Origin: Owenia fusiformis
Taxonomy: Eukaryota > Annelida > Polychaeta > Sabellida > Oweniidae
Assembly (NCBI GenBank): GCA_903813345.2
Contig: CAIIXF020000012.1
Location: 33,616,572-33,680,571, forward strand
DNA length: 64,000 bases
Direction: 5' to 3'
In this document: piece by piece, positions 1,880 through 34,771 of the stretch
Layout of the letters: every line of letters begins with the position of its first letter
How positions within the stretch are numbered: position 1 is the first letter of the stretch
Translations under genes and position numbers: made by a program
The notes under the pieces: generated by a model
The model's database searches: none
What the model was told of the DNA's origin: nothing
The model's input: the letters and a program-made list of their open reading frames with translations, nothing else

Positions 1880-2144
1880 GTAAGTTCCCTGATATTTTTA
1901 TTTGTATCATCCATAATCTTTGAAAAATCTCTTCTCTCACAAGTAGTGACATATAGTTATCGTCTCCAACTTTTTATGGATTATGTTTTGCGTTTGATGT
2001 TTTGTGGGCAGCATTTGGTGATTGGCTGTTAGCACCTGTTACAAATAGCAGGTGGTGACATTATGCATGTTAATGCCTTGTTAAACTTGCCTTTAAAGAT
2101 GATGCTCTGAATGATAATAATGGTAAGTGAGACATTTTGCACAG

Positions 2145-2511
2145 GGGTCCGTTGTTCGGAAATCCCTGCAGTTGAGCTTGAGTACCCAGAGTGAATAGAC
2201 CGCGTCAAGTATTTTGCTAGGTTCCCATTGGTATATGTTGTATGTTAATAGAGACACTTTATTACAGGGGTTCGTTGTTGGGAAATCCCTTCAGTTGAGC
2301 TGGAGTACCCAGAGTGTATAGACCGCGTCAAGTATTTTGCTATGTTTCCATTGGTATATGTTGTATGTTAATAGAGACACTTTATTACAGGGGTCCGTTG
2401 TTGGGAAATCCCTTCAGTTGAGCTGGAGTACCCAGAGTCCATAGACCGTGTCAAGTATTTCGCTAGGTTCCCATTGATATGTTGTATGTTAATAGAGACA
2501 AATTATTACAG
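2145..2511 (+). repeat. 123-bp array: acceptor plus 5' part of exon e (3 partial copies)
   Basis: Three truncated copies of exon e precede the full exon. Each begins with a 3' splice site ('ttattacag' or 'ttgcacag') followed by GGGTCCGTTGTT or a near variant, runs to about GCTAGGTTC, and passes directly into the intron-end sequence of the next copy. Acceptors fall just before 2145, 2268, 2391 and 2512 (periods 123, 123, 121). None of the first three has a donor. Unit 2 has two partial copies and unit 3 only a degraded remnant. Confidence 0.9.
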
Positions 2512-2680
2512 GGGTCCGTTGTTGGGAAATCCCTGCAGTGGAGCTGGAGTACCCAGGGTGCATAGACCGTGTCAAGTATTTCGCTAGGTTCATTTTAGAG
2601 GGACTTGTATGTCCGAAGCTGAAGTGCTTCAGAGAGGATCTGCTGTCTGCGCCTGCCACCATGAATAAGTCATGGGCCAA
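2512..2680 (+). CDS. DHX37: DHX37 exon e, full-length copy, unit 1
   Basis: 169-bp exon following the last acceptor of the 123-bp array; donor 'gtaagt'. It reads VRCWEIPAVELEYP, then IDRVKYFARF and later LLSAPATMNKSWAK, matching the DHX37 C-terminal region (P.IEV.FP..IDRYKHFARF in the vertebrate protein, recalled from the family). Only this copy has both a complete body and a donor. Confidence 0.87.
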
Positions 2681-2754
2681 GTAAGTAATTATGTAGCACA
2701 TATCTTTGAGATGCATTGACAAAATATAGCTACTTAAGCAATTCATTGTGTATA

Positions 2755-4431: not shown

Positions 4432-4508
4432 ATTTATTATCTGCCTACATGCAGTGGATCCCACAATCTCGGCATTTAGAACTAGAAGCCATGTGGCCAC
4501 CATTATAG
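4432..4508 (+). CDS. DHX37: DHX37 terminal exon g with stop, unit 1
   Basis: After acceptor 'tctatttcag' the exon completes the protein: YLLSAYMQWIPQSRHLELE, then AMWPPL and TAG. The YLL..Y..W.PQ.....E..WPP ending is the conserved DHX37 C-terminus. The 3' part of this exon, including the stop codon, is then repeated downstream. Confidence 0.9.
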
Positions 4509-5260
4509 AACTGACAGTGTTGCTATGGCAACACAGTTATGCACAGATCCCGCAATCTCGGCACTTAGAACTAGAAGCCTTGTGGCCACCATTATATGAC
4601 TGACAGTGTCACTATGGCAACACAGTTTATGCAGCAGATCGTACAATTTCGGCATTTAGAACTAGAAGCTGTGTGGCCACCATTATAGGACTGACAGTGT
4701 TGCTATGGCAACACAGTTTATTAAGTGGGTCCCTCAATCTCGGCACTTAGAACTAGAAGCCATGTGGCCATAATTATAGAACTGACAGTGTTGCTATGGC
4801 AACACAGTTTATGCACAGATCCCGTAATCTCGGCACTTAGAACTAGAAGCCTTGTGGCCACAATTATATGACTGACAGTGTCACTATGGCAGCACAGTTT
4901 ATGCAGCGGATCGTACAATTTCGGCACACTAGAACTAGAAGCCCTGTGGCCACCATTATAGGACTGAGAGTGTCACTATGGCAACACAGTTTATGCAGTG
5001 GATCCCTCAATCTCGACACTTGGAACTAGAAGCTGTGTGGCCACCATTATTGGACTGACAGTGTTGCTATGGCAACATGTTTTTTGCAGTGGCAAAATCT
5101 CAGCACTTAGAACTAGAAGTAAGGTCAACTGGCAGTGTTGCTATGGCAAGACTGTTTTTGCAGTGGATCCTACAATTATGGCACTTAAAACTAGAAACCA
5201 TATGGTCAACGAAATAGGACTGGCAGTATTGCTATGGCAACACAGGTTAAAACATTGTAA
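4509..5260 (+). repeat. ~91-bp array derived from the terminal exon and 3' UTR
   Basis: Eight or so diverged copies of the segment from the terminal exon (CAATCTCGGCACTTAGAACT, then the WPPL-stop equivalent) plus 3' UTR ('actgacagtgttgctatggc'). The TCGGCA landmark recurs at 4469, 4558, 4649, 4740, 4830, 4921 and 5013 (spacing 89-92 bp). Units 2 and 3 carry shorter versions. Because the stop codon of exon g comes first, these copies would be 3' UTR in a transcript. Confidence 0.85.
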
Positions 5261-5992: not shown

Positions 5993-6038
5993 AGAGATCA
6001 CTAGACGTCCAGTAGATGACCTTCTGCTTCTAATGAAG
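5993..6038 (+). pseudogene. DHX37: Truncated DHX37 exon (HA2 start), unit 2
   Basis: Only the 3' end of the exon intact at 54,360-54,456 remains: [15 protein letters not shown] followed by donor 'gtaagt'. The LYSSAVF...part and its acceptor are missing; the left side is fused to the post-C-terminal flank of unit 1. The EITRRPV.DL element is the family signature at the end of RecA2. It lacks an acceptor, so it is not an exon as it stands. Confidence 0.85.
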
Positions 6039-6060
6039 GTAAGTGAAAGAGGAGGAAATA

Positions 6061-10458: not shown

Positions 10459-10577
10459 TATAAATATTGAAGTGTCACTTTATAGGTCTCAAAGCAGAAT
10501 GTATCTGATATTTGAACAAAACAAAGTATTGATATTTGAGCATACAGATACCTTGACATTGATGTAATTCATTTCAG

Positions 10578-10754
10578 GCTGCTGAAAAATTACTGCTATC
10601 ACTAGGGGCCTTGGAGGCCCCTGCTAAACCTAAAAAAACACACGAAAATCCCAGAGTGCTGAAATGGACAATCCTAGTGCAAGAATATGTCCTTTAGGGC
10701 GTGCCATGGCATGTTTCCCAGTGGCTCCTTGATATGGCAAGATGCTATCTCTTG
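10578..10754 (+). pseudogene. DHX37: DHX37 HA2 exon j, frameshifted, unit 2
   Basis: Begins AAEKLLLSLGALEAPAKP after 'atttcag' as in the intact exon at 55,029-55,206, but is 177 bp instead of 178: one base is lost in the A-run after AAACCT. The shifted frame meets TAG at 10,695-10,697. Independently, the CGA arginine of APRYGKM is TGA here. The donor ('gtacgt') is retained. Confidence 0.9.
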
Positions 10755-11217
10755 GTACGTAGACACTTAAAATACATAAATATATACATGTAAGCACAAA
10801 TGCCAAAGGGAAGGGTGACTAAAAACTTTAAAGAAACCCAGCAAGAAAAGCAAACTGTAAGTGTAAATCTGTCATATGAAAAGTAGACCCTATATATCCC
10901 AAAACTATAATCTAACGTGAAAAGAAACAATGTCTGACATCCCCCTCCCCCCCTCCAATCGAGAACCAATATCACAATCCAGGACCAGAACACCAAGGGA
11001 GATTTCATTCATACTGAAGTCATTACAATACATGTTGAAGAAAAATTGAAACATACAAGCTGTAATATATGCAAAATCAATGCAGAAATGGAGATTGAAT
11101 TATGGCCGATAAGTGACACCAATGTTTTTCTCTTTGAACATTCTAAACGAAAAAAGGTAAACTTGAACAATATTCTCTCCCAAATAATTTAAAATCTGAA
11201 ATTGCATTGTTTTTTAG
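10755..11217 (+). other. DHX37 intron j-k, unit 2
   Basis: About 270 bp longer than its homologue at 55,207-55,399; the extra part (about 10,785-11,045) includes a C-run near 10,940-10,952. No coding content or clear termini seen. Confidence 0.5.
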
Positions 11218-11384
11218 GCCATCAACACAACCTTCTGCCCTATGTGATAGCCCTAGTCGCTGCCCTGTCTGTGCAAGAACTTTTTGTGGAGATAGGAGAG
11301 CCACCTATTGATGAAGCTGAGAAGCAAGCATGGAAGAATCGGGTTGGAAAAATGGTCATGTTGAATAAGACATGGGCGGGGCAG
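11218..11384 (+). CDS. DHX37: DHX37 HA2 exon k, unit 2
   Basis: 167-bp exon after 'tttttag', donor 'gtatat'. It reads GHQHNLLPYVIALVAALSVQ, then ELFVEIGEP and ends MLNKTWAGQ. LLPYVIALVAALSV is the hydrophobic HA2 helix of DHX37. Differs from the last unit by a lysine to asparagine change before KTWAG. Phase fits the following GQSALLGD exon. Confidence 0.88.
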
Positions 11385-12054
11385 GTATATTATATTAGCT
11401 AACTCTTAAATTAATCAATGTATACCCTCCCCTCCAAAAGTTTGTCAGCGGAAGGTTTTAATTTGATAGTATATCAAATACTGTCAATGAATTTAGTTCC
11501 TTAATTACAATTGTTCCGAAATATATGACTGATGATTTATTATGTCACTATTAGAAGAGGTGACATGGTGACCTGTCACATGTTGACAGGTGACATGTTG
11601 TTATGGTCTCCAACTTTTTTTGTGGACTGTGATTGGCATTCGGCGTCTATAACAAATGCCAGGTGGGGACATTTTGCATGTCAATGCCTTGTTTTAAATG
11701 GCGACACAAAAACATGCTTTAAAATGTTTTTATGGTCTCCAACTTTTTTGAACTGTGTTCGGCATTCGGCGTCTGTAACAAATGTTGGGTGGGGCCATCG
11801 TTGTAGAATAAAGTGTATGGGAAATGAATGGCAAGTCTACAACTATATTAACACCTTTATATTAAACCAGTTCTGAACCTGGTAATTATTTTGCTCTTGT
11901 AATATGCTTATGGTTTTTTATGTGCAGGTTTTTTATGTGCATAATTTTTGTAGAGAATAAATGAAAAAAATAAGTAAAAAGATAAAGTAATGAACTTGAG
12001 CTATCAGTCATCCAGACCACCTCATTTTGTACTATATTATTAATACATTTTCAG
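11385..12054 (+). other. Intron before the 93-bp array, with dispersed repeat
   Basis: Contains two tandem copies (around 11,590-11,690 and 11,730-11,800) of a dispersed repeat marked by 'tatggtctccaactttttt', 'ggcattcggcgtct' and 'taacaaatg'. The intron ends with the same intron-end sequence that is reiterated through the following array. Confidence 0.65.
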
Positions 12055-14372
12055 GGCCAAGGTGCATTGCTAGGTGACCTGATGGTGCTTTTGAAGGCAG
12101 TAGGAGCATGTGAATACGGTTGTACTGTATTATTAATACATTTTCAGGGCCAAAGTGCATTGCAAGGGGACCTGATGGTGCTTTTGAAGGCAGTAGGAGC
12201 ATGTGAATAGTGTTGTTTTGTATTATTAATACATTTTCAGGGCCAAAGTGCATTGCTAGGGGACCTGATGGTGCTTTTGAAGGCAGTTGGAGCATGTGAA
12301 TACTGTTGAACTGTATTATTAATACATTTTCAGGGCCAAAGTGCATTGCTAGGGGACTTGATGGTGCTTTTGAAGGCAGTAGGAGCATGTGAATACTGTT
12401 GTACTGTATTATTAATACATTTTCAGGGCCAAAGTGCATTGCTAGGGGACCTGATGGTGCTTTTGAAGGCAGTTGGAGCATGTGAATACTGTTGTACTGT
12501 ATTATTAATACATTTTCAGGGCCAAAGTGCATTTCTAGGGGACCTGATGGTGCTTTTGAAGGCTGTAGGAGCATGTGAGTAGAGTTGTACTGTATTATTA
12601 ATACATTTTCAGGGCCAAAGTACATTGCTAAGGGACCTGATGGTGCCTTTGAAGGCAGTAGGAGCATGTGAATACTGTTGAACTGTATTATTAATACATT
12701 TTCAGGGCCATGGTGTATTGCTAGGGGACATGATGGTGCTTTTGAAGGCAGTAGGAGCATGTGAATACTGTTGTACTATATTATTAATACATTTTCAGGA
12801 CCAAAGTGCATTGCTAGGGGACCTGATGGTGCTTTTGAAGGCAGTTGGAGCATGTGAATACTGTTCTTTTGTATTATTTCAGGGCCAAAGTGCATTGCTA
12901 GGGGACCTCGTGGTGCTTTTGAAGGCAGTTGGAGCATGTGAATACTGTTGTTTTGTATTATTTCATGGCCAAAGTACATTGCTAGGGGACCTGATGGTGC
13001 TTTTTAAGTCAGTAAGAGCATGTGAATACTGTTTAACTGTATTATTTATACATATTCAGGGCCTAAGTGCATTGCTAGGGGACCTGATTGTGTATTTGAA
13101 GGCAGTTGGAGCATGTGAATTCAGTTGTACTGTATTATTAATACATTTTCAGGGCCAAAGAGCATTGCTAGGTGACCTGATGGTGCTTTTGAAGGCAGTA
13201 GGAGCATGTGAATACTGTTGTTTTGTATTATTTCAGGGCCAAAGTACATTGCTAGGGGACCTGATGGTGCTTTTTAAGGCAGTAGGAGCATGTGAATACT
13301 GTTGTTTTGTATTATTAATACATTTTCAGGGCCAAAGTGCATTGCTAGGGGACCTGATGGTGTTTTTGAAGGCAGTTGGAGCATGTGAATACTGTTTAAC
13401 TGTATTATTTATACATATTCAGGGCCTAAGGGCCTAATACATTTTTATGGCCAACGAAAGTGCATTGCTAGGAGACCTGATGGTGCTTTTGAAGGCAGTA
13501 GGAGCATGTGAATACTGTTGTACTGTATTATTAATACATTTTCAGAGCCAAGTGCATTGCTAGGGGACCTGATGGTGCTTTTGAAGGCAGTAGGAGCATG
13601 TGAATACTGTTGTACTGTATTATTAATACATTTTCAGGGCCAAAGTGTATTGCTAGGTGACCTTATGGTGCTTTTGAAGGCAGTAGGAGCATGTGAATAC
13701 TGTTGTACTGTATTATTTATACATTTTCAGGGCCAAAGTGCATTGCTAGGGGACCTGATGGTGCTTTTGAAGGCAGTAAGAGCATGTAGTACTGTTGTAC
13801 TATATTATTAATATATTTTCAGGACCAAAGTGCATTGCTAGGGGACCTGATGGTGCTTTTGAAGGCAGTAGGAGCATGTGAATACTGTTGTACTGTATTA
13901 TTAATACATTTTAAGGGCCAAAGTGTATTGCTAGGGGACCTGATGGTGCTTTTGAAGGCAGTTGGAGCATGTGAATACTGTTGTTCTGTATTATTAATAC
14001 ATTTTCAGGGCCAAAGTGCATTGCTAAGGGACCTGATGGTGCTTTTGAAGGCAGTTGGAGCATGTGAATACTGTTGTTCTGTATTATTAATACATTTTCA
14101 GAGCCAAGTGCATTGCTAGGGGACCTGATGGTGCTTTTGAAGGCAGTAGGAGCATGTGAATACTGTTGTTCTGTATTATTAATACATTTTCAGAGCCAAG
14201 TGCATTTCTAGGTGACCTGATGGTGCTTTTGAAGGCAGTAGGAGCATGTGAATACTGTTGTTTTGTATTATTTCATGGCCAAAGTGCATTGCTAAGGGAC
14301 CTGATGGTGCTTTTGATTGCAGTAAGAGCATGTGAATACTGTTGTACTGTATTATTAATACATTTTCAGGGC

Positions 14373-15000
14373 CAACCTGCATTGCCAGGGGACCTGATGG
14401 TGCTTTTGAAGGCAGTTGGAGCATGTGAATACTGTTGTACTGTATTATTAATACATTTTCAGGGCCAAAGTGCATTGCTATGTGACCTGATGGTGCTTTT
14501 GAAGGCAGTTGGAGCATGTGAATACTGTTGTACTGTATTATTAATACATTTTCAGGGCCAACCTGCATTGCCAGGGGACCTGATGGTGCTTTTGAAGGCA
14601 GTTGGAGCATGTGAATACTGTTGTACTGTATTATTAATACATTTTCAGGGCCAAAGTGCATTGCTATGTGACCTGATGGTGCTTTTGAAGGCAGTTGGAG
14701 CATGTGAATACTGTTGTACTGTATTATTAATACATTTTCAGGGCCAACCTGCATTGCCAGGGGACCTGATGGTGCTTTTGAAGGCAGTTGGAGCATGTGA
14801 ATACTGTTGTACTGTATTATTAATACATTTTCAGGGCCAAAGTGCATTGCTATGTGACCTGATGGTGCTTTTGAAGGCAGTTGGAGCATGTGAATACTGT
14901 TGTACTGTATTATTAATACATTTTCAGGGCCAACCTGCATTGCCAGGGGACCTGATGGTGCTTTTGAAGGCAGTTGGAGCATGTGAATACTGTTGTACTG
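14373..15000 (+). repeat. 186-bp higher-order repeat within the 93-bp array
   Basis: Two unit variants alternate: one with ACCTGCATTGCCAGG and one with AAAGTGCATTGCTATGTG. The first type starts at 14,375, 14,561, 14,747 and 14,933, exactly 186 bp apart, and the copies are virtually identical. This marks recent amplification of a dimer. Confidence 0.9.
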
Positions 15001-18000
15001 TATTATTAATACATTTTCAGGGCCAAAGTGCATTGCTAGGGGACCTGATGGTGCTTTTGAAGGCAGTAGGAGCATGTGAATAATGTTGTACTGTATTATT
15101 AATACATTTTCAGGGCCAAAGTGCATTGCCAGGGGACCTGATGGTGCTTTTGAAGGCAGTTGGAGCATGTGAATACTGTTGTACTGTATTATTAATACAT
15201 TTTCAGGGCCAAAGTGCATTGCCAGGGGACCTGATGGTGCTTTTGAAGGCAGTTGGAGCATGTGAATACTGTTGTACTGTATTATTAATACATTTTCAGG
15301 GCCAAAGTGCATTGCTAGGGGACCTGATGGTGCTTTTGAAGGCAGTTGGAGCATGTGAATACTGTTGTTCTGTATTATTAATACATTTTCAGGGCCAAAG
15401 TGCATTGCTAAGGGACCTTGTGGTGCTTTTGAAGGCAGTAGGAGCATGTGAATACTGTTGTTTTGTATTATTTCATGGCCAAAGTGCATTGCTAAGGGAC
15501 CTGATGGTGCTTTTGATTGCAGTAAGAGCATGTGAATACTGTTGTACTGTATTATTAATACCTTTTCAGGGCCAAAGTGGATTGCTTAGGGACCTGATGG
15601 TGCTTTTAAAGGCAGTAGGAGCATGTGGATACTGTTGTACTGTATTATTAATACATTTCAGGCCCAAAGTGGATTGCTTGGGGACCTGATGGTGCTTTTG
15701 AAGGCAGTAGGAGCATGTGAATACTGTTGTACTGTATAATTAATACATTTTCAGGGCCAACCTGCATTGCTTGGGGACCTGATGGTGCTTTTGAAGGCAG
15801 TAGGAGCATGTGAATACTGTTGTACTGTATTATTAATACATTTTCAGGGCCAAGGTGCATTGCTTGGTGACCTGATGGTGCTTTTGAAGGCAGTTGGAGC
15901 ATGTGAATACTGTTGTACTGTATTATTAATACATTTTCAGGGCCAAAGTGCATTGCTAGGGGACCTGATGGTGCTTTTGAAGGCAGTAGGAGCTTATGAA
16001 TACTGTTGTACTATATTATTAATACATTTTCAAGGCCAAAGTGCATTGCTAGGTGACCTGATGGTGCTTTTGAAGGCAGTTGGAGCATGTGAATACTATT
16101 GTACTGTATCATTAATACATTTTCAGGGCCAAAATGCATTGCTAGGGGACCTGATGGTGCTTTTGAAGGCAGTAGGAGCATGGGAATACTGTTGTACTGT
16201 ATTATTAATACATTTTCAGGGCCAAGGTGCATTGCTTGGTGACCTGATGGTGCTTTTGAAGGCAGTTGGAGCATGTGAATACTATTGTACTGTATCATTA
16301 ATACATTTTCAGGGCCAAAATACATTGCTAGGGGACCTGATGGTGCTTTTGAAGGCAGTAGGAGCATGTGAATACTGTTGTACTGTATTATTAATACATT
16401 TTCAGGGCCAAAATGCATTGCTAGGGGACCTGATTGTTTTTTTGAAGGCAGTTGGAGCATATGAATACTGTTGTACTGTATTACTAATACATTTTAAGGG
16501 CCAAGTGCATTGCTAGGGGACCTGATGGTGCTTTTGAAGGCAGTTGGAGCTTGTGAATACTATTGTACCGTATTACTAATACATTTTAAGGGCCAAGGTT
16601 CATTGCTTTGTGACCTGATGGTGCTTTTGAAGGCAGTGGGAGCATGTGAATACTGTTGTACCGTATTATTAATACATTTTCAGGGCCAAAGTGACTTTGA
16701 TTCTGTGATTTATTCTATCTAATTGCCATTTTATTGTCAGATGGAGCATGTGAATACTGTTGTACTGTATTATTAATACATTTTCAGGGCCAAGGTGCAT
16801 TGCTATGTGACCTGATGGTGCTTTTGAAGGCAGTAGGAGCATGTGAATACTGTTGTACTGTATTATTAATACATTTTCAGGGCCAAAGTGTATTGCTAGG
16901 TGACCTGATGGTGCTTTTGGAGGCAGTTGGAGCATGTGAATACTGTTCTTTTGTATTATTTCAGGGCCAAAGTGCATTGCTAGGGGACCTGATGGTGTTT
17001 TTGAAGGCAGGCGGAGCATGTGAATACTGTTTTTTTTGTATTATTTCAGGGCCAAAGTGCATTGCTAGGTGACCTGATGGTGTTTTTGAAGGCAGTTGGG
17101 GCATGTGAATACTGTTGTTTTGTATTACTAATATATTTTAAGGGCCATGTGCATTGCTAGGGGACCTGATGGTGCTTTTGAAGGCAATTGGAGCATGTGA
17201 ATACTTTTGTACTGTATTATTAATACATTTTCAGGGCCAAAGTGCATTGCTAGGTGACCTGATGGTGCTTTTGAAAGCAGTTGGAGCATGTGAATAGTGT
17301 TGTACTGTATTATTAATACATTTTCAGGGCCAAAGTGGATTGCTTGGGGACCTGATGGTGCTTTTGAAGGCAGTAGGAGCATGTGAATAGTGTTGTACTG
17401 TATTATTAATACATTTTCAGGGCCAAAGTGGATTGCTTGGGGACCTGATGGTGCTTTTGAAGGCAGTAGAAGCATGTGAATAGTGTTGTTTTGTATTATT
17501 TGTACATTTTAGGGCCAACCTGCATTGCTAGGGGACCTGATGGTGCTTTTGAAGGCAGTAGGAGCATGTGAATAGTGTTGTACTGTATTATTAATACATT
17601 TTCAGAGCCAAGTGCATTGCCAGGGGACCTGATGGTGCTTTTGAAGGCAGTAGGAGCATGTGAATACTGTTGTACTGTATTATTAATACATTTTCAGGGC
17701 CAAGGTGCATTGCTAGAGGACCTCATGGTGCTTTCGAAGGCAGTAGGAGCATGTGAATACTGTTGCACTGTATTATTATTACATTTTCAGAGCCAAAGTG
17801 CATTGCTAGGGGACCTGATGGTGCTTTTGAAGGCAGTAGGAGCATGTGAATACTGTTGTACTGTATTATTAATACATTTTCAGAGCCAAAGTGCATTGCT
17901 AGGGGACCTGATGGTGCTTTTGAAGGCACTAGGAGCATGTGAATACTGTTGTACTATATTATTAATACATTTTCAGAGCCAAGTGCATTGCTAGGTGACC

Positions 18001-18216
18001 TGATGGTGCTTTTGAAGGCAGTAGAAGCATGTGAATACTGTTGTACAATATCATTAATACATTTTCAGAGCCAAGTGCATTGCCAGGGGACCTGATGGTG
18101 CTTTTGAAGGCAGTAGGAGCATGTGAATAGTGTTGTTTTGTATTATTTGTACATTTTAGGGCCAACCTGCATTGCTAGGGGACCTGATGGTGCTTTTGAA
18201 GGCAGTTGGAGCATGT

Positions 18217-18896
18217 TTTGTTTTTTTATACATTATCAATTTATTTCATCATAATCATGTTTTACAAGAATGGCTTGCCAATCGCTTATAAAGCATTATA
18301 GGCTAAGCTAGAAAATACATAAATTTAATTACAAATGTAAATGCATGTAGTATGGAAGAATAGCAGCAATTTGGATAAGAAATGGGAAATAGGACAGGCT
18401 GGGGTCATGTGTCATAGTCTCAGTGAGGGAATAGTAGGCATAGTTAATACTTGCTTGGCTTGGAGGGTCCCATAGAGAATTATGATTATGTTAAGAGTTC
18501 TCCAGTAAGAAATTGGCAACAAGAGCAAAAAGTTCATTATTTTGTGCCAGCGATAAATCGTCACTGCCATGTTTCAGAAAATCTATAAATTGGCTTTTGT
18601 TCCTTATAGCTAAAGGCTTGTAAGTCTCTACAAGTGCAAGAAAAGTGTTCCTATTTTGTGCTTTATTTGGACAATAAAAGAATAAATGTTTTGGAGTTTC
18701 AGGCACACCACAAGCGCAGTTTGGTGTTTCAATATAAGTAAAGTTGTGGCCATATAGCTGAGCTTTAGTGAGCAAGTCAACTCTGAATCTATTGAGAATT
18801 ATTTCTTGATTTCTTTTTAACTTTAATTTAGTAGTTGGTAAAAAGGAGGGCTTAGGGATTTTATTTTTTTGTAAGTTATTGAAGCTGGTAATTGGT
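18217..18896 (-). mobile_element. 5'-truncated LINE tail inserted in the 93-bp array
   Basis: A minus-strand frame (18,491-18,907) contains PNCACGVPETPKHLFFYCP, the C-x-C...H-x4-C zinc-finger-like motif found near the C-terminus of non-LTR retrotransposon ORF2. The element is flanked by a 13-bp target-site duplication AGTTGGAGCATGT (18,204-18,216 and 18,897-18,909), which is itself array sequence. The A-rich 3' end of the element lies at the low-coordinate side. Confidence 0.92.
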
Positions 18897-19316
18897 AGTT
18901 GGAGCATGTGAATACTGTTCTACTATATTATTAATACATTTTCAGAGCCAAGTGCATTGCTAGGTGACCTGATGGTGCTTTTGAAGGCAGTAGGAGCATG
19001 TGAATAAGGTTTTACTGTATCATTTATACATTTTCAGGGCCAAAGTGCATTGCTAGGTGACCTGATGGTGTTTTTGAAGGCAGTAGGAGCAAGTGAATAC
19101 TGTTGTACTGTATCATTTATACATTTTCAGGGCCAAAGTGTATTCCTAGGTGACCTGATGGTGCTTTTGAAGGCAGTAGGAGCATGTGAATACTGTTGTA
19201 CTGTATTATTAATACATTTTCAGGGCCAAAGTGCATTGCTAGGGGACCTGATGGTGCTTTTGAAGGCAGTAGGAGCATGTGAATACTGTTGTACTGTATT
19301 ATTAATACATTTTCAG

Positions 19317-19473
19317 GGCCAAAGTGCATTGCTAGGGGACCTGATGGTGCTTTTGAAGGCAGTTGGAGCATGTGAATACGCTGGCTGCTCCACAGACTTC
19401 TGCTTCCAACATGGCATAAGGCATAAAGCGATGATTGAAATACGCAAACTCAGATCTCAGCTCACCAATGCAG
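19317..19473 (+). CDS. DHX37: DHX37 HA2 exon, terminal complete copy of array, unit 2
   Basis: 157-bp exon starting at the last acceptor and ending with donor 'gtatgg'. It reads [20 protein letters not shown], then [19 protein letters not shown] and ends LRSQLTNA. This is the DHX37 HA2 C-terminal (ratchet) segment; MVLL.AVGA.EYAGC..FC is conserved. It joins in phase to exon a (VNSVLP) at 31,661, with 12 kb of intron, a lectin gene and a LINE in between. Confidence 0.9.
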
Positions 19474-20539
19474 GTATGGAAGGGTCATGTTGCTATGAAT
19501 GATTGTAGCATTTTTTGCTCACACAATAAGCATATGGAATAACTAAGCATCTTTTTGTCCATCCATCCATCCATCCATCCATCCATCCTTCCATCCATCA
19601 GTCTGTTCTTCTGCCAACATAGGTGGTACAAATTAAAACTGTTTTTTGTATTAAGAAGTGTCTTCATTCATTTTTATGTCACCATCAAAAACGGTGACGT
19701 ATTTTTATAGTCTCCAAGTTTTTTGTAGCCTGTGTTTGGCATTTGGCATTCAAACATCGGCAGATATGACAGGGTTCGGGTTGACAGATTTGATTTATAT
19801 TCTATAGGCTGATATCTTATGTATAAGGAAACTCAATATGGCTGCTTAATTCAAAATGTCCCCCATTTTGTGTAAAAAAAAAATCTTTGATGACTCAAAT
19901 ACAAGTTGTCACATTTAGTTCAAATATGCTGATGCCTTAGGACATAGAAGATTCAAGATGGCTGCTTATTTTCATTATTGCTCCAAATTTTGGGGTAATA
20001 GCTTTATTTTTGTTCACTAGGATACGAGTTATCAGACTTGGTCTAAACTTAAAAAGCTGATGTCTTGTAGAAACAGGATTTCTATCCACTCAATTCAAAA
20101 TGGCTGACATTTTTCTTAAAAAATATAATTTTTGATTTCTCAAGTCCCAATATTTGTATAATGTCAATTTCTTTAATATATAACAACCAGCCGATTCTTG
20201 TGGTAATTACTGGAAGACCAAAATGGCATATTTAGGTTTTTTGCCAAGTACCTAGTAAATGGGTAGAATAAGATCTGAAAATGGCAATAAGTGGGACGAC
20301 ATTAAGGGGTCTTTGAGGATAGGTAGATTAAAATCTGACAATAAAATGGCAATTAGATAGAATAAATCACAGAATCAAAGTCACTTATAATTCCATACAT
20401 TTCTATTATAGTATATTTAAATTTTCATTTCAATAGTCATTCATCATCCCAATATGTTCTACTTCATCATAGCCCCAGCTCAAGTGTTCTCTGTATATTG
20501 TATGGGGCATTTTGTTTCATATTAGAGTGCAAGATATTC
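19474..20539 (+). other. DHX37 intron with CCAT microsatellite and dispersed repeats
   Basis: Holds a (CCAT)n run at about 19,557-19,600, one copy of the 'tagtctccaagttttttgtag' dispersed repeat near 19,710, and several diverged copies of the ~115-bp 'gctgatg...aaaatggctg' family (19,740-20,150). Homologous introns lie at 41,096-42,065 and 60,849-61,906. Confidence 0.65.
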
Positions 20540-23201
20540 TTATTTAGGACAAACTTTCATGTCAATCTTTTTAAAAGAATAATTCCAATTGTCAGGTGAG
20601 CCAATTCTGTTTGGCCAGTTGTACCATATCACACACTCACCATCAGTAGGGCACTTAGCATTAGTACTATAAAAACCAAACAGATTTGAATGGAAGCAGT
20701 TATTATACCACCAAGCCCCTTTGTTCCGAACAGCACAATTGATACTATCTCTATCATGATCACGGTCCTTTGTACTAAATGCCATACCATTGTGGCGAGC
20801 AAGAGAGTCCCCAGCAGTTCCACTATAACCTCCAATTGTCAGTCTGTAGTTATCACTTTCATCACTAATATCAAACATGGAGTATTCAGCATGACGTGTT
20901 TCACTCTGTGGGGGCCACATGGTAAGATCAACTCTGAGACTGTAGTTGCCTTGACTTAATAGACCATGAAGATTGTTCAGGCCAATGAAATATTCTCCTT
21001 CTGGGTTACCGAATCCTGACTGATACTCATTCCAGCCTCTGTAGAAATCAACACTCCCATCAAATCGCCTTGCCATGTAGACACACCCACCGCTACAGTA
21101 CACTCTGAATGCATTTTGTCCTGGTGGTTGGATTGTTCTAACACCAGTAAAGCATGTGTCATCACTACAGTCATGAGGGAAATATACTGAAATACAATAA
21201 AGGCATCATGTAGTTAAAGTTTGAAAATATTCTCCAAATTGAATTTTTTGAATTTTAATCTTTTAATTTTCTGCGATTGAAACAAAAAACAGATTCCAGA
21301 TCATCAAATACAGCATTTCACATTTTATTATTTTTTCCTTTCCAAGTAGTTGCTTTGACATGATATCTTAATTAAGGAAATTATGAATGGGAAAATTAAG
21401 ATACTAAAGTCCTTTGCAAAATTCTTCTAGAATTACCCATGGCAAAGTTTGCATGTGTTCTTTTTCTCTATTAAGTTCTCTTTTGACATCTTGAATTTCT
21501 TAGTACTCGCATAACATTTACTTGATTTTTTCATATTTTTTACCTTGCTAACGATACACTCTTGGGCTACTTTGTACAGATTTTCAGTGAATTTGGTTTC
21601 GGTTGCTGAGAAAATACTTGTCAAAAACTGTCTCATTGTCTGAGACACCCAATATATATATGTACCAATATCCTATCTTCTCTCATATTTCTTCAACTAA
21701 TTATTGTAATTTCTCAACACAAAATAGATTACAATGTATGGTATGCATTAGTGAAATTATGAATTGGAATTGGCATCTAAAATTAAATTTCTGTAATGTA
21801 TTGGCCAGCCTTATTGACCCAGGCAGATACCAGCTTGTCGATAAAGTGATATCACTTTATGATCTGATATTCGTTTTTCATCTGGTGATATGGATTGGAG
21901 GGGGAGTAGCTGATTTTCGCTAGATAATTCAACAAATCTGGAAGATATATTTTTACTATTGTCATTGTTGGTTTTGTAAAATACATTACCATATGTTCTA
22001 TAATAAATAATCGAAAATTATTAGAATTGAACTGAAGGGGTTGAATGAGGGGAAGTATTGGAGTAATTTGTCTATAAGACATATGATAAGAGATGTAACT
22101 TGACTTTATTTCCAATAACTCCAACTGTACCTAATTTTCACTTTCAGAGTTGTAACATCAAAATGTTACTAAGTTACTGAGTTCAATTTTCAAATACACA
22201 AATTCATGGAAATTTCTTTCAGCCTAAAGACATATTACACCCCCCCCCCTCCGTTCACCCCCTCCCGCTTTGTTCAATTCTAATTATATTTTATAATTAT
22301 ATTTTATGCAATGGCATTGATTTTGTTATGAAAACATCACTATTAGTATTGATTGCAGGTCGTGTAGACCATTGTCGCTTGATTTACAGCAAAAACATTG
22401 ACATTTGCACATTGGTGATGCTGCACCTTTTCTAATAGATCTTATATCTTAGAAGCCTATTGGATCAAAAACAGTCAATGAAGACCTAACACATGTAACA
22501 TATTTCCCTGTGTCATGCGCCTATTCATTTAGCAATTCAATTGTAAACTTTCTGTTGAAAAAATTAATCTTGCAGATTTATGGCATTTTCTAGCAAAAAT
22601 CAACCACTCCCCCTCCGTTCATTTCTTCCGATCATTAGGCGTGATAATACTAGACTAAAAATTGAAACAACTTCATACTTCGTAAATAGTGCTCTTCCAA
22701 GCGATCTCTTATACGAGTTACATCAGCTTTCATCTCATCAACCTTGTCATTTACTTCTTCTACTTCATCATTTACTTGTTCCACTTTTTCATTTACTTCT
22801 TCCACTTTATCATTTACTTCTTCTACTTTATCATTTACTTCTTCCACTTTATCACATACATCTTCTACTTTATCATTTACTTCTTCTACTTTATCATTTA
22901 CTTCTTCCACTTTATCACATACTTCTTCTACTTTATCATTTACTTCTTCTACTTTATCATTTACTTCTTCCACTTTATCATTTACCTTTTCCACTTTTTC
23001 ATTTACTGCATTTATTTGTTCTTCATCTCTTGTGCAGCAGTTTTGTATATCAGATTTTAGTTCACTAAGCTGTGTGCTCAAGCTTGTATCAAGGTTGTCA
23101 ATATGCGTTTTCTTGCATGTACTAGGCTTCTTGGCTTTTTTCTCCAAATGAACATCTCCAACGAGGAATACTATTAACAATACTTTCGTAATCAGATACA
23201 T
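20540..23201 (-). CDS. Fibrinogen-related protein (coiled-coil FREP), copy 1, nested antisense in DHX37
   Basis: Two visible exons. Exon 1, complement(22679..23201), starts at MYLITKVLLIVFLVGDV, a plausible signal peptide; an upstream in-frame Met at 23,276 lacks a counterpart in copy 2. It continues with Cys-containing STCKK and NCCTRDE segments and 13 heptads of the V-N-D-K-V-E-E type (coiled coil, Val at a and d). Its donor is a weak GAA|GTATGA. Exon 2, complement(20540..21186), follows 'gtatttcag' in matching phase and encodes a ~215-residue fibrinogen-like domain: HDCSDDTCFTG, YCSGGCVYMARRFDG, the calcium-site-like DRDHDRD, then GAWWYNNC and SNLFGFY, ending KVCPK. Such secreted lectin-like proteins act in innate recognition in molluscs (family knowledge). 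No disabling change is visible. Confidence 0.85.
21187..22678 (-). other. FREP copy 1 intron
   Basis: Intron between the coiled-coil exon and the fibrinogen-domain exon. It is shared with FREP copies 2 and 3 and carries a C-run next to 'tccgttcac' (22,239-22,262). No other gene was recognised. Confidence 0.6.
22736..23008 (-). repeat. 21-bp coding minisatellite encoding FREP heptads
   Basis: Thirteen 21-bp units, each one coiled-coil heptad (VNDKVEE and variants). A 63-bp super-repeat is visible, with a VCDKVEE heptad after every two VNDKVEE-type heptads in the central part, giving regularly spaced cysteines. Copy 2 has only six such heptads. Confidence 0.9.
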
Positions 23202-24347
23202 GATTGTAGCAAGATGTGTGTTGATCAGAAATTGACTGTGCTCAGTTAAAGTTGATTTACTCGAGAATGAAAACATTATTTTTACTTTGCATGCATCATT
23301 AATTTAGCCGCTTTGCATCAAGCATATAATTATGTGCAATATCACTGTGATTCAAAACATATATGGGGCCAGGTCGATATTTGAATGTCCATCAAAAATG
23401 TAATTAATTTAGTGAAGGCTTTACCCCCCCTCCCCTCTCCTCTTCTAACGAATGTCAAAATGATGATTCTCACGCAGTAAAAGTAAGTCAAAATGTTGAT
23501 TTAAATGCATTGTACAAGTACAAGCCCTGTATACAATATTTGCAAGTGCGATAAACAACTCATATCATATTCTCTTACATATCTGATGTGGCTGATACCT
23601 TAATTGATAACTTATTCATTGTAAATTCTCACACGTTTTCTATATGCCCCAGGTCCTCTTTTTTTATTATTACTCTGGCAACCATTTATAATTGAGTATT
23701 TCTGTTATACTAAATATTTTTGTGGGATTTAATCATCATTGCATATTATACATTTTGTGACAATTACAGTAAAAAAAAAGTTGAAAGCACCTTTATCATT
23801 ATGAGATATGTATTTAAATATATGCTATTGTATCATAAGGACTTATCTCAACAAAAATGCTAATTAACAAGGGTAGAGCATATCTTTAACAGTACATTAT
23901 TTAATCAATTGATTTTGTGATCATCAGAAAATAGATGAGGTAATATATTAAACAATGATGTTTGAAAGTATTTTTCATCTCTGATCTCCGTATGTACATA
24001 TCATTTATAAAACCCATCACAACTATTTATTGCTCATTTATAAGTATTGAATATTGTTTGAAGTTTTGTATTAAGTAATTTTCACTTCATCTCCATATTT
24101 ACATATAATGAATAACAAAGCCAACATTGTAACTATTTATTGCTCATAGTATTGATATGTGCGTTTTTCATCCTTGTAAGATACCTTTCTACTTTTCATT
24201 ATTTGGATGTCGTATATTGTGACATATTGTTATATTATCTAACTTTTTGTAGATGGTGTTTGGTGTTCGGGGTATAATTGCATCGGTAACAAATTCTAGC
24301 AACTTCCAATAACTTCACAACCTTCAAATTTTTACTGTGAACATATA
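23202..24347 (+). other. DHX37 intron / FREP upstream region
   Basis: Sequence upstream of FREP copy 1, homologous to 44,064-45,190. It probably contains the FREP promoter; no confident TATA/Inr was assigned. A copy of the dispersed 'gttatattatctaacttttt' repeat lies near 24,228-24,290. Confidence 0.5.
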
Positions 24348-26266: not shown

Positions 26267-29200
26267 TTACAATTGCTTCCCAGCCTCATTTAGAAACTTA
26301 CATAATGCTAACAATACTTTACTATCAGATTGTAACAGCTTGGCATATTTAAAAGTACTAATGTTTTTACAAAAATATTGGGGTAAGTATTGTTTTCTAA
26401 TGCTTTTAACAGACTTACATTCTAATATAAAATGAAATTCATCTCCTAATGAATTGTTATTACATAGTTCACAAAATCTCCTATTTCTTTCTACATTTCT
26501 ATACCTACCCCTCTCAATAGGTAATTTTGTGTTGGACATTCTGTATTTTGATAAAATAACTCTATATTTTTGAGGCAGTGAAAATAAGTAGTCTTCAAAC
26601 TTGAATTCTGTTTTAAAAATTCTATAATTAAAACCTATGTTACTATTACTTACATCATTTTCCCACGATTGCCTGAACTGGTCTTCTAGCCTTAATTTTA
26701 CCATTTTAACAAATTTTGAAAAATGCGAACTACTAGGATTTAACCAAATGTTTGTCATTCCAAGATTATCTAATGACTTCTTGACATAATTCAGCCAGTC
26801 AGACTTCACAAGATTTTTATCAAAATAACTTCTATATATTTTGTACATCTTTGCCGAGAGCGTTTTTTCATTGTTAGAGCTTAATCTATACCAATATTTT
26901 AATATACAGAAATCAAATTTTACCCTTAATGGCATTCTCCCTAACTCACCATAAACCATAAAGGTTGGTGTTGATGCTTTGACTTTAAGGATATACTTTA
27001 AAAACTTTAAATGTAATTTTTCTATTTTGTATTGTTGATAAAGCCCCATACCTCAGCCCCATATAACAAAATGGGGGCAACAAGTGTATCAAAAAGATGT
27101 AATTGTGTCTTAATTGGTAACTAATATCTATTACCCTGGCTAAGTATAGCAAACATGGCCTTTTCTGCCTGGCTATATACATTTTTAATATTTTGATTGA
27201 ATCCACCCTTTTGATCAATAATAACTCCAAGATATTTAAAAACAGTCACATTTTCCAGTTTAATTCCATCCAAAACTACATTTTGAATACCTTTTCTACC
27301 TGTTTTACTATTACTAAAAACCATAACCTTGGTTTTATCTAAGTTGATGTGGATTTTCCATTTTTTACAATATCGTGATAATTCAGAAAAGGCCTTTTGC
27401 AAATTGGTCATAGAATTAGCAAATATCACAGTATCATCTGCGTATAATAAAACAAGCAACTTTAAAAGTACATTTAGTTGTGCGTCATCCATAAGTGGAA
27501 TAGGTTCACAACTATTGTCAAGTAAAAAGGCTTCTACATCATTTATAAACAAAGCATAGAGCAAAGGGGAGAGATTTTCTCCCTGACATAGCCCTAAAGA
27601 TGAGCTAAAAAAATCAGACTTTTTAACATTATCATGAGATACACAACTCTTAATATTATTATACATATTCTGGATTACAGTTAAAAACCTTCCTTCGATT
27701 CCATAACATTTAATTAGTTTGTGCCATAGGCCAGCTCTCCACACAGAGTCAAACGCAACCGAATAATCTACGAATCCACAATAAAGTTTTTGCTTCTTAG
27801 TCAAAAGAATATCAATCAAGCATTTCAAAACAAAGATGTGATCAGTTGTGGAATGAAACTTCCGAAATCCACACTGATTAATATTTAACAATTCCATTGA
27901 ATTTACGAAGTCAGTCAGTCTTACATTCAACACATGAGTGAATAATTTAGCACAACAGCTTAACAATGTTATACCTCTATAATTTTTGGGATCGTTCAGA
28001 TTACCCTTTTTCTTGAAAATCGGTTTAATAATTCCTTTCAACCAGTCACTAGGCATAACTCCACAGGTTAACACTTTATTAAACAATTTCACCCATACGT
28101 CAATCAATAATGATTTACTGTACTTAATATACTCATTTAATATATTATCCATACCTGAAGACTTGCCATTCTTTAAGGATTTGATAGCTGAATAAATTTC
28201 ATCAGCTGTGATGTCACAATTAAGAAGTTTAATATTCAAGTCATAAGCAAAGCCTGTCTCATACTGAGAAGGCATGTCTTCTGGTATCTCATGTGATGCA
28301 TCAGATGAGTACAAGCTTTCAAAATGATCCCTTAAGAGATCAAGGTTGACTTCATTGAATTCTTTTTTTGACTTTGGATTTAAAATTTTCCAATACCTTT
28401 TACTATCATTCTTTTTGAGATTCAATAATTTTTTGTTAAATTGCCTCTTGTACTCTTTCTGTGCTTTGATGCGTTGCTTTTTGTATTGTTTGTTTTTACG
28501 TACCATGTCTTGCTTATCTAGTTCACTTTTAGTCCTAAGATACCTATTTTTAGCATTATTATATGATCTCCTTTTTAGATGACATGTTTTATCAAACCAT
28601 TTATTAACATTTTTACCATTTTTAAAAACGTCTTGTTTACATGTTTTTACTGATAACCCTGATTTATCAGCAGCAGACAAAATACATTCATTTAGCTTTA
28701 CATTTAAATCGTCAACAGATGTTGATGGATCATCTAACAATACATTTAGTTGCTTTATAACTTCAGTATCTAAATTTGTTTGAAAATCATCAGCCTTATC
28801 GTTAGACCATATATATTTAAAATGATTGTCATTTGCCACAAATGAGATATTCTGATCATCACAGATTAAAGTTTGATTCTTACATGTCATAGACAAGTTA
28901 ATGAAGCAATGAACGTCAGAATAATCTTGGTTAAATTGTTCTATCTCAACATTTTTCAGATCTGGTGTGCATATTAGACCTGTTGATAATATAATATAGT
29001 CTGTTACAGAACCCTTTCCTTTAAAACATGTAATATTTTCACTATTCTTTCCAAATCTCCCATTAGCAATAAATAAATTATTTGCTTTACACATTTGTAT
29101 CAGTCTATTCCCAAAATTATTTACCCTGTGTGAGTCATGTGAAACTCGTTTCACTTTAACATTGTAATTCTCAAGCTGATCTATTGCATTAAAAAATTCT

Positions 29201-29754
29201 ACCATTTTGTCATCAATGCAATGCGTCATATACTTGTCAATTTTAGCATAATCTTCCATTGAACCTGTATGTGAATTTAAATCCCCCAAGAGGCAGAGTT
29301 CTTCATTTTCATTTTGCAAACTAAGCATCTCTGATTCAATTTTATCAAAACAGTTATAGTCAGAGTACAGTGATCCTTCAGGTGGGATATATACACCTCC
29401 TAATAGCATTGGATGACCACATAATTGACTATCAATCCTCAACCATAGGACACAATCACATTTGTTTTCAATATATTTGATATGTTTCTTAAATTGTTGT
29501 TTTACAGCTACAAGAATCCCTCCAGATTTTTTAACAGACATCTTCTTTCTAATTTTGAAAAATGTTATATATCCAAGTTCTTTTAAATCCCTTGAAATAT
29601 TTATCTCATCAACTTTATCCAGTTTTGTTTCAGTTAAGGTAAGGATATCATACTCTGAAATTTTGACTCTGAAGTCTGGATTGGATAATTTCGATTTTAA
29701 TCCACAAACATTTATATGGCCAAACTTTCTAAGAGGGAGAGACTGGGAGGATTC
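26267..29754 (-). pseudogene. LINE ORF2: endonuclease-reverse transcriptase, disrupted
   Basis: Endonuclease landmarks in order: INVCGLKSKLS, LTETKLD, GGVYIPPEGS, LCLLGDLNSHTG, VTDYIIL and YSDVHCF. Reverse transcriptase landmarks: IKPIFKKKGNLNDPKNYRGI, QCGFRKFHSTTDHIF, FVDYSVAFDSVW, LSPLLYALFINDVE and the catalytic LYADDTVIF. The C-terminus has YGELGRMPL and CELCNNN..GDEFHFILEC. Lesions: an in-frame TAG at 27,121-27,123 inside GNRY|LPIKTQLHLFDTL, and a frameshift near 27,050 (EVWG to GLYQQYKIEKLHL). The frame is open upstream of the Met at 29,541 back to the ORF1 stop, and the first endonuclease motif lies in that Met-less stretch. Confidence 0.9.
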
Positions 29755-30810
29755 CTATCTCATTGTGTGAGTCCCTCTACCACCTCTAGCTCCACCTCTG
29801 GCAGTAGATGCACCACCTCTAGCTCCACCTCTTGCAATAGGGGCATTTGCGCCACCCCTTCCACTTCTTCCTCTAGTCACTGTGTCAGCATCCTCATTGA
29901 TGTCATCATCATCCCAGTTGTTTCTGCTCCAGTCATCTCTGTTCCAATTATGTCTTCGTTCTCGACCTGCAGGTGTCAGACGACCACTACCTGTGAATGT
30001 GTATTGGTTACCATTGGGTATGTTTGAGAGGATTTCACGGCAATTAATTTCAATGAGCCTTTCTGCATGTGACTTAGCACCATGAATGTATATATTCTTA
30101 AATTTCTCAGTCTGTCTTAGCTTCATTTTACTCTGGAGTATAGCGATTTTATCATCCCTTGTGGCTACCTGAACTTTGACAACACCTGGACGACCATTCC
30201 TTGATTTGGTTCTCTCTACATCTGTTATAATTTTGTGGTCCATTTTTAGACCTTCCTGCAGCAATACAGAGATTTTGCCCCTCAGATTCTCATTTTCAGA
30301 GGCTGGTACATTAGTTACTATGATAGAATTCTGAGGATCAAACCTCTGTGATGTCGCAGGGACTGCTCTAACCTCCGTTTGTTGTTTTTCAACTGTTTCA
30401 ATCCTCTTGGTTATGTCCCCCAGCTTCTTATTCATATCTAGGTCGAACCGCTGTATACCGTGTTTTATGGCATTAATTTCAGAATCAACCTTGGCAGTGA
30501 TCATCGCCTCAAATTTGGCAAATGTAGCTTCAATGGATTTTCTTGCAGATTCAATTTCTCCCTTGATCACTTCACGGATATCTGCCAGATTTAACTGATT
30601 TTCATTTTTCCCAGTGTTAGTGATTTCTGTTTCACCATTCACTTGCTTAGAGTTTTCAGTATCACTACAAGGCTCACTTTCGTTATCAGTTTCCATTGTG
30701 TCTTTAGAAATGTTTGACTCACTGTCGTCTTTGTTTGTTTTATTCTTGTTTTTCTTTTTCATCTGTTTCTTTTTCTGAGTCTTACGATTTTGGCTTTTTG
30801 GGGATGTCAT
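29755..30810 (-). CDS. LINE ORF1 nucleic-acid-binding protein
   Basis: 351 residues, uninterrupted. The N-terminus is lysine-rich (KKKQMKKKNKNKTNK), then acidic, then a predicted coiled coil (about residues 85-150, REVIKGEIESARKSIEATFA region). An RRM-like segment starts at NSIIVTNVPASENENLRGK, and the C-terminus is RGG-rich (GGARGGASTARGG). This resembles L1-type ORF1 proteins that trimerise and chaperone RNA; no CCHC knuckle is present. It ends ATG AGA TAG, and ORF2 continues in the same reading frame directly after that TAG. Confidence 0.85.
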   Translation of the reverse strand: MTSPKSQNRKTQKKKQMKKKNKNKTNKDDSESNISKDTMETDNESEPCSDTENSKQVNGETEITNTGKNENQLNLADIREVIKGEIESARKSIEATFAKFEAMITAKVDSEINAIKHGIQRFDLDMNKKLGDITKRIETVEKQQTEVRAVPATSQRFDPQNSIIVTNVPASENENLRGKISVLLQEGLKMDHKIITDVERTKSRNGRPGVVKVQVATRDDKIAILQSKMKLRQTEKFKNIYIHGAKSHAERLIEINCREILSNIPNGNQYTFTGSGRLTPAGRERRHNWNRDDWSRNNWDDDDINEDADTVTRGRSGRGGANAPIARGGARGGASTARGGARGGRGTHTMR

Positions 30811-30840
30811 TCTGACTGTTCTTTCCTATTTTAATCAATT

Positions 30841-33722: not shown

Positions 33723-34035
33723 GTAAGTTCCCAGATATATACTTATCTGTATCATCCATAATCTTTGAAAAATCTCTTCTGTCACAAGTGGTGACATATA
33801 ATTATCGTCTCCAACTTTTTTATGGATGATGTTTGACGTTTGATGTTTAATGGGCAGCATTCGGTGGTTGGCATTTAGCATATGTTACAAATAGTATGTT
33901 GTGACATTTTGCCTGTTAATGCCTTGTTAAACTTGCCTTTAAAGATGATGCTCTGAATGATACCATGAATGAGGCAAGTGAGACGTATTGCCTCATTGGT
34001 ATATGTTGTATGTAAATAGAGACACTTTATTACAG
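33723..34035 (+). other. DHX37 intron d-e, unit 2
   Basis: Contains one copy of the dispersed repeat family ('tatcgtctccaacttttt', about 33,795-33,930). No coding content. Confidence 0.6.
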
Positions 34036-34281
34036 GAGTCCGTTGTTGGGAAATCCCTGCAGTTGAGCTGGAGTACCCAGAGTGTATAGACCGTGTCAAG
34101 TATTTCGCTAGGTTCCCATTGGTATATGTTGTATGTAAATAGAGACACTTTATTACAGGAGTCCGTTGTTGGGAAATCCCTGCAGTTGAGCTGGAGTACC
34201 CAGAGTGTATAGACCGTGTCAAGTATTTCGCTAGGTTCCCATTGGTATATGTTGTATGTTAATAGAGACACTTTATTACAG
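34036..34281 (+). repeat. 123-bp array, acceptor plus partial exon e (2 partial copies), unit 2
   Basis: Partial copies start at 34,036 and 34,159, and the full exon at 34,282: exact 123-bp spacing. Both partial copies begin GAGTCC rather than GGGTCC and are near-identical over the full unit, which suggests one recent duplication. Neither has a donor. Confidence 0.9.
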
Positions 34282-34450
34282 GGGTCCGTTGTTGGGAAAT
34301 CCCTGCAGTTGAGCTAGAGTACCCAGAGTGTATAGACCGTGTCAAGTATTTCGCTAGGTTCTTTCTAGAGGCTCTTGTATGTCCTAAGCTGAAGTGCTTC
34401 AGAGAGGATCTGCTGTCTGCGCCTGCCACCATGAATAAGTCATGGGCCAA
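34282..34450 (+). CDS. DHX37: DHX37 exon e, full copy, unit 2
   Basis: 169 bp, acceptor 'tttattacag', donor 'gtaagt'. It reads VRCWEIPAVELEYPECIDRV, then KYFARFFLEALVCPKL and ends MNKSWAK. Open. Confidence 0.88.
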
Positions 34451-34771
34451 GTAAGTATTTATATAAAACATATCCTCGAGATGCATTGACAAAATATAAC
34501 TATTTAAGCTATTTATGTGTATATCTAGATTTGGAATTTGTATGAGTCATATTAGTTTAAGACATGTGCCATAACACATAGAGAAAAACCTGTCTAATTC
34601 AAATGCCACTTGGAGTGAGCTGTAGTGTTCTGATTGGCTGGTGTTCACATTTTGAGTTTTTAACATGGAATTATGTAACAGTATATGGGATTGAAAAAAG
34701 TGTTTAAATTGACAGTTGTTCAGATGGATTTACTGGTTTTACTGTAAACATTTGATGTTTGTTTCTTGCAG
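34451..34771 (+). other. DHX37 intron e-f, unit 2 (empty site of the 781-bp MITE)
   Basis: Uninterrupted version of the intron that carries the TIR element at 2755 in unit 1. No coding content. Confidence 0.7.

Follow-up and report, generated by a model that had tools for sequence, protein, structure and literature searches.

The DHX37 Locus and Its Partial Copies

The stretch analysed here (hereafter the window) comprises 64,000 nucleotides of the genome of the annelid Owenia fusiformis (contig CAIIXF020000012.1) and contains four partial copies of the helicase gene DHX37 in the same orientation (A to D), three of which hold a long tandem array across the boundary of intron 7 and exon E8. 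Exons were mapped by reading 1–15 kb and 42–57 kb in three frames against solved structures, with stops rendered as X, and by subsequent tblastn searches with the exon peptides. Fourteen exons (E1–E14 in our numbering), which reach from approximately human residue 580 to the C-terminus, were assigned to the copies by order. The GC content of the window is 29–42% per kb, below that of Branchiostoma.

Copy A comprises E9–E14, its left side being cut by the window start, while copy B extends from a truncated E4 to E14 (5994–35492), copy C from E8 to E14 (40–49.5 kb), and copy D from E1 to E8, beginning at 51989 (approximately human residue 580) and running off the window. The truncated E4 that forms the 5′ end of copy B lies at 5994–6041 (forward strand; tblastn and duplication blocks), and E6 of the same copy (10572–10756, forward strand; structure-guided reading and tblastn) contains an in-frame TGA as well as a frame change, which falls in a stretch of A and could be a sequencing error. 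Earlier exons of copies B, C, and D were not found in the window by the three-frame and tblastn searches, which also detected no E1–E7 for copy C; as far as these searches show, the three copies are 5′-truncated in the window. Concerning the copies at the two sides of copy B, we also noted that positions 1–1598 of copy A and 45779–47369 of copy C are 98.3% identical, with the next block at ~91%, suggesting recent exchange between copies.

The array of copy B lies downstream of exon E7 (11217–11384, forward strand; DHX37 alignment and tblastn). This exon and the last copy in the array together encode 108 residues that align without gaps to mouse and human DHX37 (E 1.1e-34 and 4.6e-32, respectively). 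We inspected the E7/E8 junction in 8 of 49 homologous proteins, of which five read ...Q/G at this point with unrelated sequence upstream, as would be expected if the homologues have the same intron; one reads K/G, one continues like E7, and one starts further on.

Structure of the Acceptor Arrays at Exon E8

Array B (12027–19379, forward strand) comprises 72 scored units, mostly of 93 bp with 92 and 84 bp variants, as determined by Tandem Repeats Finder (TRF) and unit alignment. A period of 93 was returned by TRF in two segments, 12027–18216 (66.9 copies, score 8478) and 18897–19379 (5.2 copies), and individual units were delimited by wrap-around alignment of each array to a cyclic consensus. 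Each unit joins the 3′ end of intron 7, TATTAATACATTTTCAG, with its AG acceptor, to GGCCAAAGTGCATTGCTAGGGGACCTG..., the initial 63 bp of DHX37 exon E8, the acceptor being in phase 0 at AG/GGC. Only the last unit of array B runs on into the body of E8 and its donor (CAG/GTATGG, GT at 19474), and the authentic exon of this copy, 157 nt at 19317–19473 (forward strand; DHX37 alignment and tblastn), is thus composed of the exon part of the last unit and a single-copy remainder. Array C (39713–41001, forward strand) consists of 11 clean and ~3 degenerate units (TRF part 40033–41001), followed by the single-copy remainder of E8 at 41002–41095 (forward strand, tblastn), and array D (56237–60754, forward strand; TRF and unit alignment) consists of 49 units, followed by the E8 remainder at 60755–60848 (forward strand; tblastn and frame check), which carries an in-frame stop. 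In copies B and C, the E8 joined by the last unit is intact.

The anatomy, the gene, and the positions given in a preliminary description of this DNA were borne out by TRF, by unit alignment, and by the gap-free match of E7 and E8 to mouse and human DHX37, and its copy numbers of ~70, ~13, and ~48 agree with the ~72, 13–14, and 49 units counted in the copies B, C, and D of this one genome. The described period of 93 bp with a shorter, 84 bp variant was found as well, though incompletely so: of the 130 full units, 91 measure 93 bp, 22 measure 92 bp, 13 measure 84 bp, and 4 are of other lengths. These 130 units, pooled from the three arrays despite their relatedness and including the three exon-proximal ones, also underlie the unit statistics below; 4 of 134 pieces that were partial or heavily interrupted, and the degenerate units of array C, were excluded. 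The AG acceptor is kept in 67 of 72 scored units in array B, 9 of 11 in C, and 43 of 49 in D (119/132).

Within the window, the 93 bp unit occurs only in arrays B, C, and D, the degenerate head of C included, and a dispersed satellite was rejected on this ground. Collections of viral and prokaryote contigs, scanned for exact 27-base matches, gave none, although they have little bearing on an animal. There was likewise no match in Rfam at gathering thresholds or in phage records.

Two insertions interrupt array B. The larger, of 680 bp (18217–18896, minus strand), splits the array and is flanked by the 13 bp direct repeat AGTTGGAGCATGT; it has a T-rich left end and a minus-strand open reading frame (ORF) with no Pfam match, and is probably the 3′ end of a 5′-truncated long interspersed nuclear element (LINE). 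The smaller is a templated insertion of 54 bp in one unit (16689–16742), whose sequence reproduces intron 8 at 20333–20386, 3.6 kb downstream, exactly and in reverse.

The ends of the arrays and their flanks are homologous across copies B, C, and D at ~87–93% identity. In addition, three distinctive units follow one another in the same order in arrays B and D (at 13608 in B and 56976 in D), whereas shuffling the units 200 times gave a longest run of 2, whichever of three thresholds was applied. The count of neighboring pairs common to B and D was reached by 0 shuffles at threshold 0, by 1 at threshold 1, and by 45 of 200 at threshold 2, and is therefore unremarkable at the loosest. No unit order common to C and either B or D was seen in this test. 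Judging by the homologous flanks in all three copies and by the run common to B and D, the array is probably older than the separation of the gene copies. An exact alternation of two units over 3.5 repeats at 14340–14990 in array B indicates, on the other hand, that turnover has also been recent.

Selection on Array Units and on Coding Exons

The distinct changes among the 130 units comprise 57 nonsynonymous, 17 synonymous, and 4 stop changes, against 54.7, 19.2, and 4.1 expected without selection, and an omega of ≤0.5 was rejected (P = 7e-4). Variant types per column number 1.17 in the intron part of the unit and 1.33, 1.19, and 1.19 at the three codon positions. When adjacent nucleotide pairs are ranked by conservation, the AG of the acceptor takes rank 49 of 92 in all 130 units, and rank 39 when the ranking is limited to the 114 units that have no more than two gaps. 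The distinct changes in the units thus fit neutrality, and the AG is not specially kept.

The C-terminal exons E9–E14 of copies A–C are under constraint. Pairwise comparison of these exons gave 28 synonymous and 13 nonsynonymous differences for A–B (omega 0.15), 18 and 11 for A–C (0.20), and 22 and 17 for B–C (0.24), against an expected synonymous share of 24–25% (P 3e-9 to 2e-5). Copy D could be compared only in E5, E7, and the E8 remainder, with 6 synonymous and 5 nonsynonymous differences between B and D.

Splice Sites and Reading Frames

If the host copies are transcribed, the splicing machinery would face acceptors in series at E8. Use of an AG-bearing unit would leave an open frame to the end of exon E8 in only 4 of 72 units in array B, 2 of 11 in C, and 0 of 49 in D. 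These 6 apart, each of the 119 units with an AG would bring a premature stop or the wrong frame. The preliminary description had proposed that read-through of the array keeps the frame. As 39 of 130 units are not of 93 bp, read-through does not generally do so, and the few units open to the exon end likewise speak against the proposal.

We compared the 3′ splice sites from −20 to +3 and found that those identical to the last site number 36 of 71 upstream sites in array B, 2 of 10 in C, and 0 of 48 in D. Strong local superiority of the last acceptor of array B was rejected on this comparison, and local strength therefore cannot be what chooses it. Donors were scored with a human donor matrix, on which the true E8 donor reaches 4.56. 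One GT in array B, at 12575, scores 4.93; the other GTs in this array score <3, and no GT in C or D reaches 4. The claim that the last copy alone has a donor is therefore nearly right, the GT at 12575 in B being the exception. Units acting as mini-exons with their own donors were rejected, as the widespread GTAGGA site scores <2; the one GT in B scores >4. Given that, save for this one, no internal donor is competitive, a choice of acceptor made across the exon would favor the last unit.

Further Arrays at Exon Edges

The array at E8 is not the only one at an exon edge in this gene. A 123 bp unit containing an acceptor and the start of E12 is repeated in copy A (2141–2681, forward strand), where three extra units precede the authentic E12, and in copy B (33994–34451, forward strand), where two extra units do so; E12 of copy C (48196–48447, forward strand) is preceded by one partial unit remnant. 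An 87 bp unit forms a donor array at E2 in copy D (52351–52724, forward strand), in which the exon is followed by three extra copies of its end and 5′ splice site. Its four donor units score 5.9, 5.78, 5.78, and 4.62 on the human matrix. At the 3′ end of the gene, E14, with the C-terminus and stop, is followed by a 91 bp array of its coding end, stop, and 3′ flank in copy A (4434–5119, array 4449–5119, forward strand), copy B (35421–36071, array 35436–36071), and copy C (49384–49942, array 49399–49942). What is unusual is the scale and the occurrence in one gene of acceptor arrays (E8 and E12), a donor array (E2), and a 3′-end array (E14).

Four of the five independent arrays in the window (units of 60–200 bp, at least 2.5 copies) touch a DHX37 exon, the fifth being a 162 bp tandem repeat of 2.9 copies at 37989–38463, which lies between copies B and C and clear of every mapped DHX37 exon. 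Under a crude null, this enrichment at exon edges has a P of 0.0013 at an assumed overlap of 0.13 and of ~0.002–0.003 at computed overlaps of 0.137–0.161, in a post hoc test with n = 5 from which 126 bp repeats with fewer than 2 copies and 21 bp coding repeats were excluded. It is possible, if doubtful, that a process in this genome, perhaps operating outside cephalochordates, has specifically amplified exon edges, and that its result is the longest ladder of near-identical acceptors known to us, which would make a natural test of exon definition with a choice of one among ~70 sites.

Relation to Known Systems

In the preliminary description, no system of this kind was said to be known. The amphioxus mirage minisatellites, tandem repeats across exon–intron boundaries, had however already been published for the genes Adh3, the globins BflGb6 and BflGb9, troponin C, and PGBD5. 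In the globin study, the Adh3 data and the authors' own reverse transcription PCR (RT-PCR) on globin are taken to suggest undisturbed regular splicing, while accurate splicing was inferred for the PGBD5 mirage in a report that also cites troponin C (PMC3902484). Regular splicing of mirages goes back to RT-PCR for globin and to earlier data for Adh3 and troponin C. The BflGb6 mirage is reported with 3–6 units of 150–160 bp, Adh3 with units of 10–72 bp, and PGBD5 with 2–7 and 3–6 units in two assemblies.

The likeness to mirages extends to several traits. Mirage units span either an intron end and exon start, as at E8 and E12 here, or an exon end and donor, as at E2; one end of the array retains the authentic boundary next to an intact exon, as with E8 in copies B and C; and many but not all units keep the splice signal. 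Length instability and partial homogenization are also features in common, represented here by the 72, 13–14, and 49 units of the gene copies and by the alternation of two units. Mirages have been reported in several genes, whereas the arrays at E2, E8, E12, and the 3′ end lie in one, and the ~72, 49, and 13–14 units at a single site here contrast with the 2–7 given for BflGb6 and PGBD5. The DHX37 arrays are a very large addition to the mirage minisatellites, in partial and partly damaged gene copies.

Exon arrays of the Dscam1 exon 6 type consist of whole exons, each with a donor, that are under selection. The DHX37 arrays resemble them in presenting many acceptors in series but differ in that the units, apart from the one with the GT at 12575, lack donors and show a neutral ratio of changes.

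Two further systems are partly comparable. A potato RNA-dependent RNA polymerase gene gained an intron by tandem duplication across an intron–exon boundary (PMC4974935), the duplicated segment taking in, as here, the 3′ part of an intron with its acceptor and the beginning of the exon that follows; that case is a single duplication with a new intron and a recruited donor, whereas there are many units and no sign of a new intron here. In human segmental duplications (PMC2812944), variable internal tandem repeats occur at exon–intron boundaries, and these resemble the present arrays as minisatellite expansions at exon–intron edges of recently duplicated genes. The human units differ in averaging 30 bp in 4 copies, and the 27 intron modifications described were weighed with transcript evidence. 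A search of openly licensed literature, made without the gene name, found no such arrays in DHX37 and none of this size.

Origin and Significance of the Arrays

We consider it likely that the E8 arrays are mirage-type intronic minisatellites that expanded through unequal exchange and that splicing uses the exon-proximal site, where the mechanism of exchange and the choice of splice site are what we infer. A segment made up of the tail of intron 7 and the initial 63 bp of E8 would have been tandemly duplicated in an ancestral gene copy, and the array would then have expanded and contracted via unequal exchange or slippage and been copied along as the 3′ part of the gene itself duplicated in tandem. 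The repeat would be functionally intronic, with only the unit joined to the remainder of the exon coding and the others drifting as non-coding DNA. In a transcribed copy, the exon-proximal acceptor would most likely pair with the sole good downstream donor by exon definition, giving the normal 157 nt exon.

Several observations weigh against this account. The raw difference rate per unit peaks at third codon positions (0.062, against 0.041 and 0.029 at the other two and 0.040 in the intron part); this excess stems from a small number of frequent variants, some of which are synonymous, and which may be old and date from times when the units were coding or from exchange with the coding exon. E8 itself is hardly testable, with 2 synonymous and 0 nonsynonymous differences in its remainder between B and C, and 2 and 4 between C and D. 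The E2 donor array (52380–52724) is mixed for plain drift, given that copies 2, 3, and 4 each depart from the first by 6 synonymous changes and by 2, 1, and 0 nonsynonymous ones, respectively, so that the last copy keeps the peptide of the first. As for splicing, local differences among acceptors could matter in arrays C and D, in which few or no upstream sites are identical to the last; the donor matrix is a human one, on which one unit of array B holds a GT above the true donor; and, the globin mirages being reported with 3–6 units, their regular splicing may not extend to ~70.

The principal rival, with an appreciable but clearly lesser probability, is that copies B, C, and D are dead gene fragments that are never transcribed, which would make the arrays plain minisatellites in pseudogenes with no splicing choice at all. 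The 5′ ends of the copies fit this, as B begins with an incomplete E4, no E1–E7 were detected in C, D starts from approximately human residue 580, and their earlier exons were not found in the window; so do the frame change and stop in E6 of B and the stop in E8 of D. Yet purifying selection acts on the C-terminal exons of A, B, and C in every pair, B versus C included (omega 0.24), indicating that these exons were coding for much of their divergence, the frame change in B may be a sequencing error at its run of A, and similar arrays occur at E12 of copy A, possibly the end of a complete gene that starts left of the window.

We regard as very unlikely that the array is a working splicing device, whose serial acceptors would titrate factors, delay splicing, or yield isoforms subject to nonsense-mediated decay, and in this way set the level of DHX37. 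The AG retained in 119 of 132 units, the 36 of 71 upstream sites of B identical to the last, and the premature stop or wrong frame to which nearly every AG-bearing unit leads would suit such a device, but the AG is conserved no better than the average adjacent pair, copy number varies widely between gene copies, and the published mirages are reported as leaving regular splicing undisturbed. That the ~70 acceptors matter to the cell, as the preliminary description had implied, found no support in the changes among the units, in which no selection on coding sequence is apparent and the AG is not specially kept; the host copies, moreover, are 5′-truncated in the window, two of them with lesions. 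Still more improbable, to the point of being nearly negligible, is read-through of the array as a single long exon encoding a protein of 31-residue repeats. The 93 bp consensus is open in the frame of the exon, ORFs on the plus strand of the arrays reach 307 aa, and third positions are enriched in common variants; against this, the ratio of distinct changes is neutral, and units of 92 bp or with stops break the frame, leaving 4/72, 2/11, and 0/49 units open to the exon end. The coding repeat was disfavored on this ratio and these broken frames. A protein search with the longest plus-strand ORF (307 aa) passed none of the 7996 candidates scored, and none of the 49 homologous proteins found with the E7 and E8 query has more than one LGDLM motif (34 have one, 15 none).

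An assembly artefact, in copy number or in the arrays as such, is also improbable, about as much so as the splicing device. Tandem repeats are error-prone in assemblies, and the amphioxus BflGb6 mirage was itself called aberrantly assembled in the genome draft (PMC3087553). The three arrays have private variants, however, with different unit types in C, and array B contains the transposon-like insertion with its direct repeat and the 54 bp templated insertion, while B and D have an ordered block of units in common.

A boundary-spanning minisatellite can thus grow to ~72 units within a gene that stays constrained in its C-terminal exons (copies A–C). If the copies are expressed, the identity of about half of the upstream acceptors of array B to the true one would leave the decision to position relative to the donor, and the locus would be a clean natural test of exon definition. 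Arrays at such boundaries have, in addition, been proposed as a source of new introns.

Neighboring Genes and Elements

Apart from the DHX37 exons, the window contains a LINE-like element on the minus strand (26267–30825), which comprises an ORF with a reverse transcriptase domain (PF00078) as well as an adjacent upstream and a downstream ORF, both without a Pfam match. Intron 8 of copies B, C, and D harbors an ORF with a fibrinogen C-terminal domain (Pfam PF00147) on the minus strand, at 20540–23303, 42066–44108, and 61907–62572, respectively. These ORFs are presumably FREP-type lectin genes, to judge by their appearance, and look to have been duplicated together with the helicase. In copies B and C, the fibrinogen-domain ORF is adjoined by a coiled-coil-like ORF built on a 21 bp repeat.

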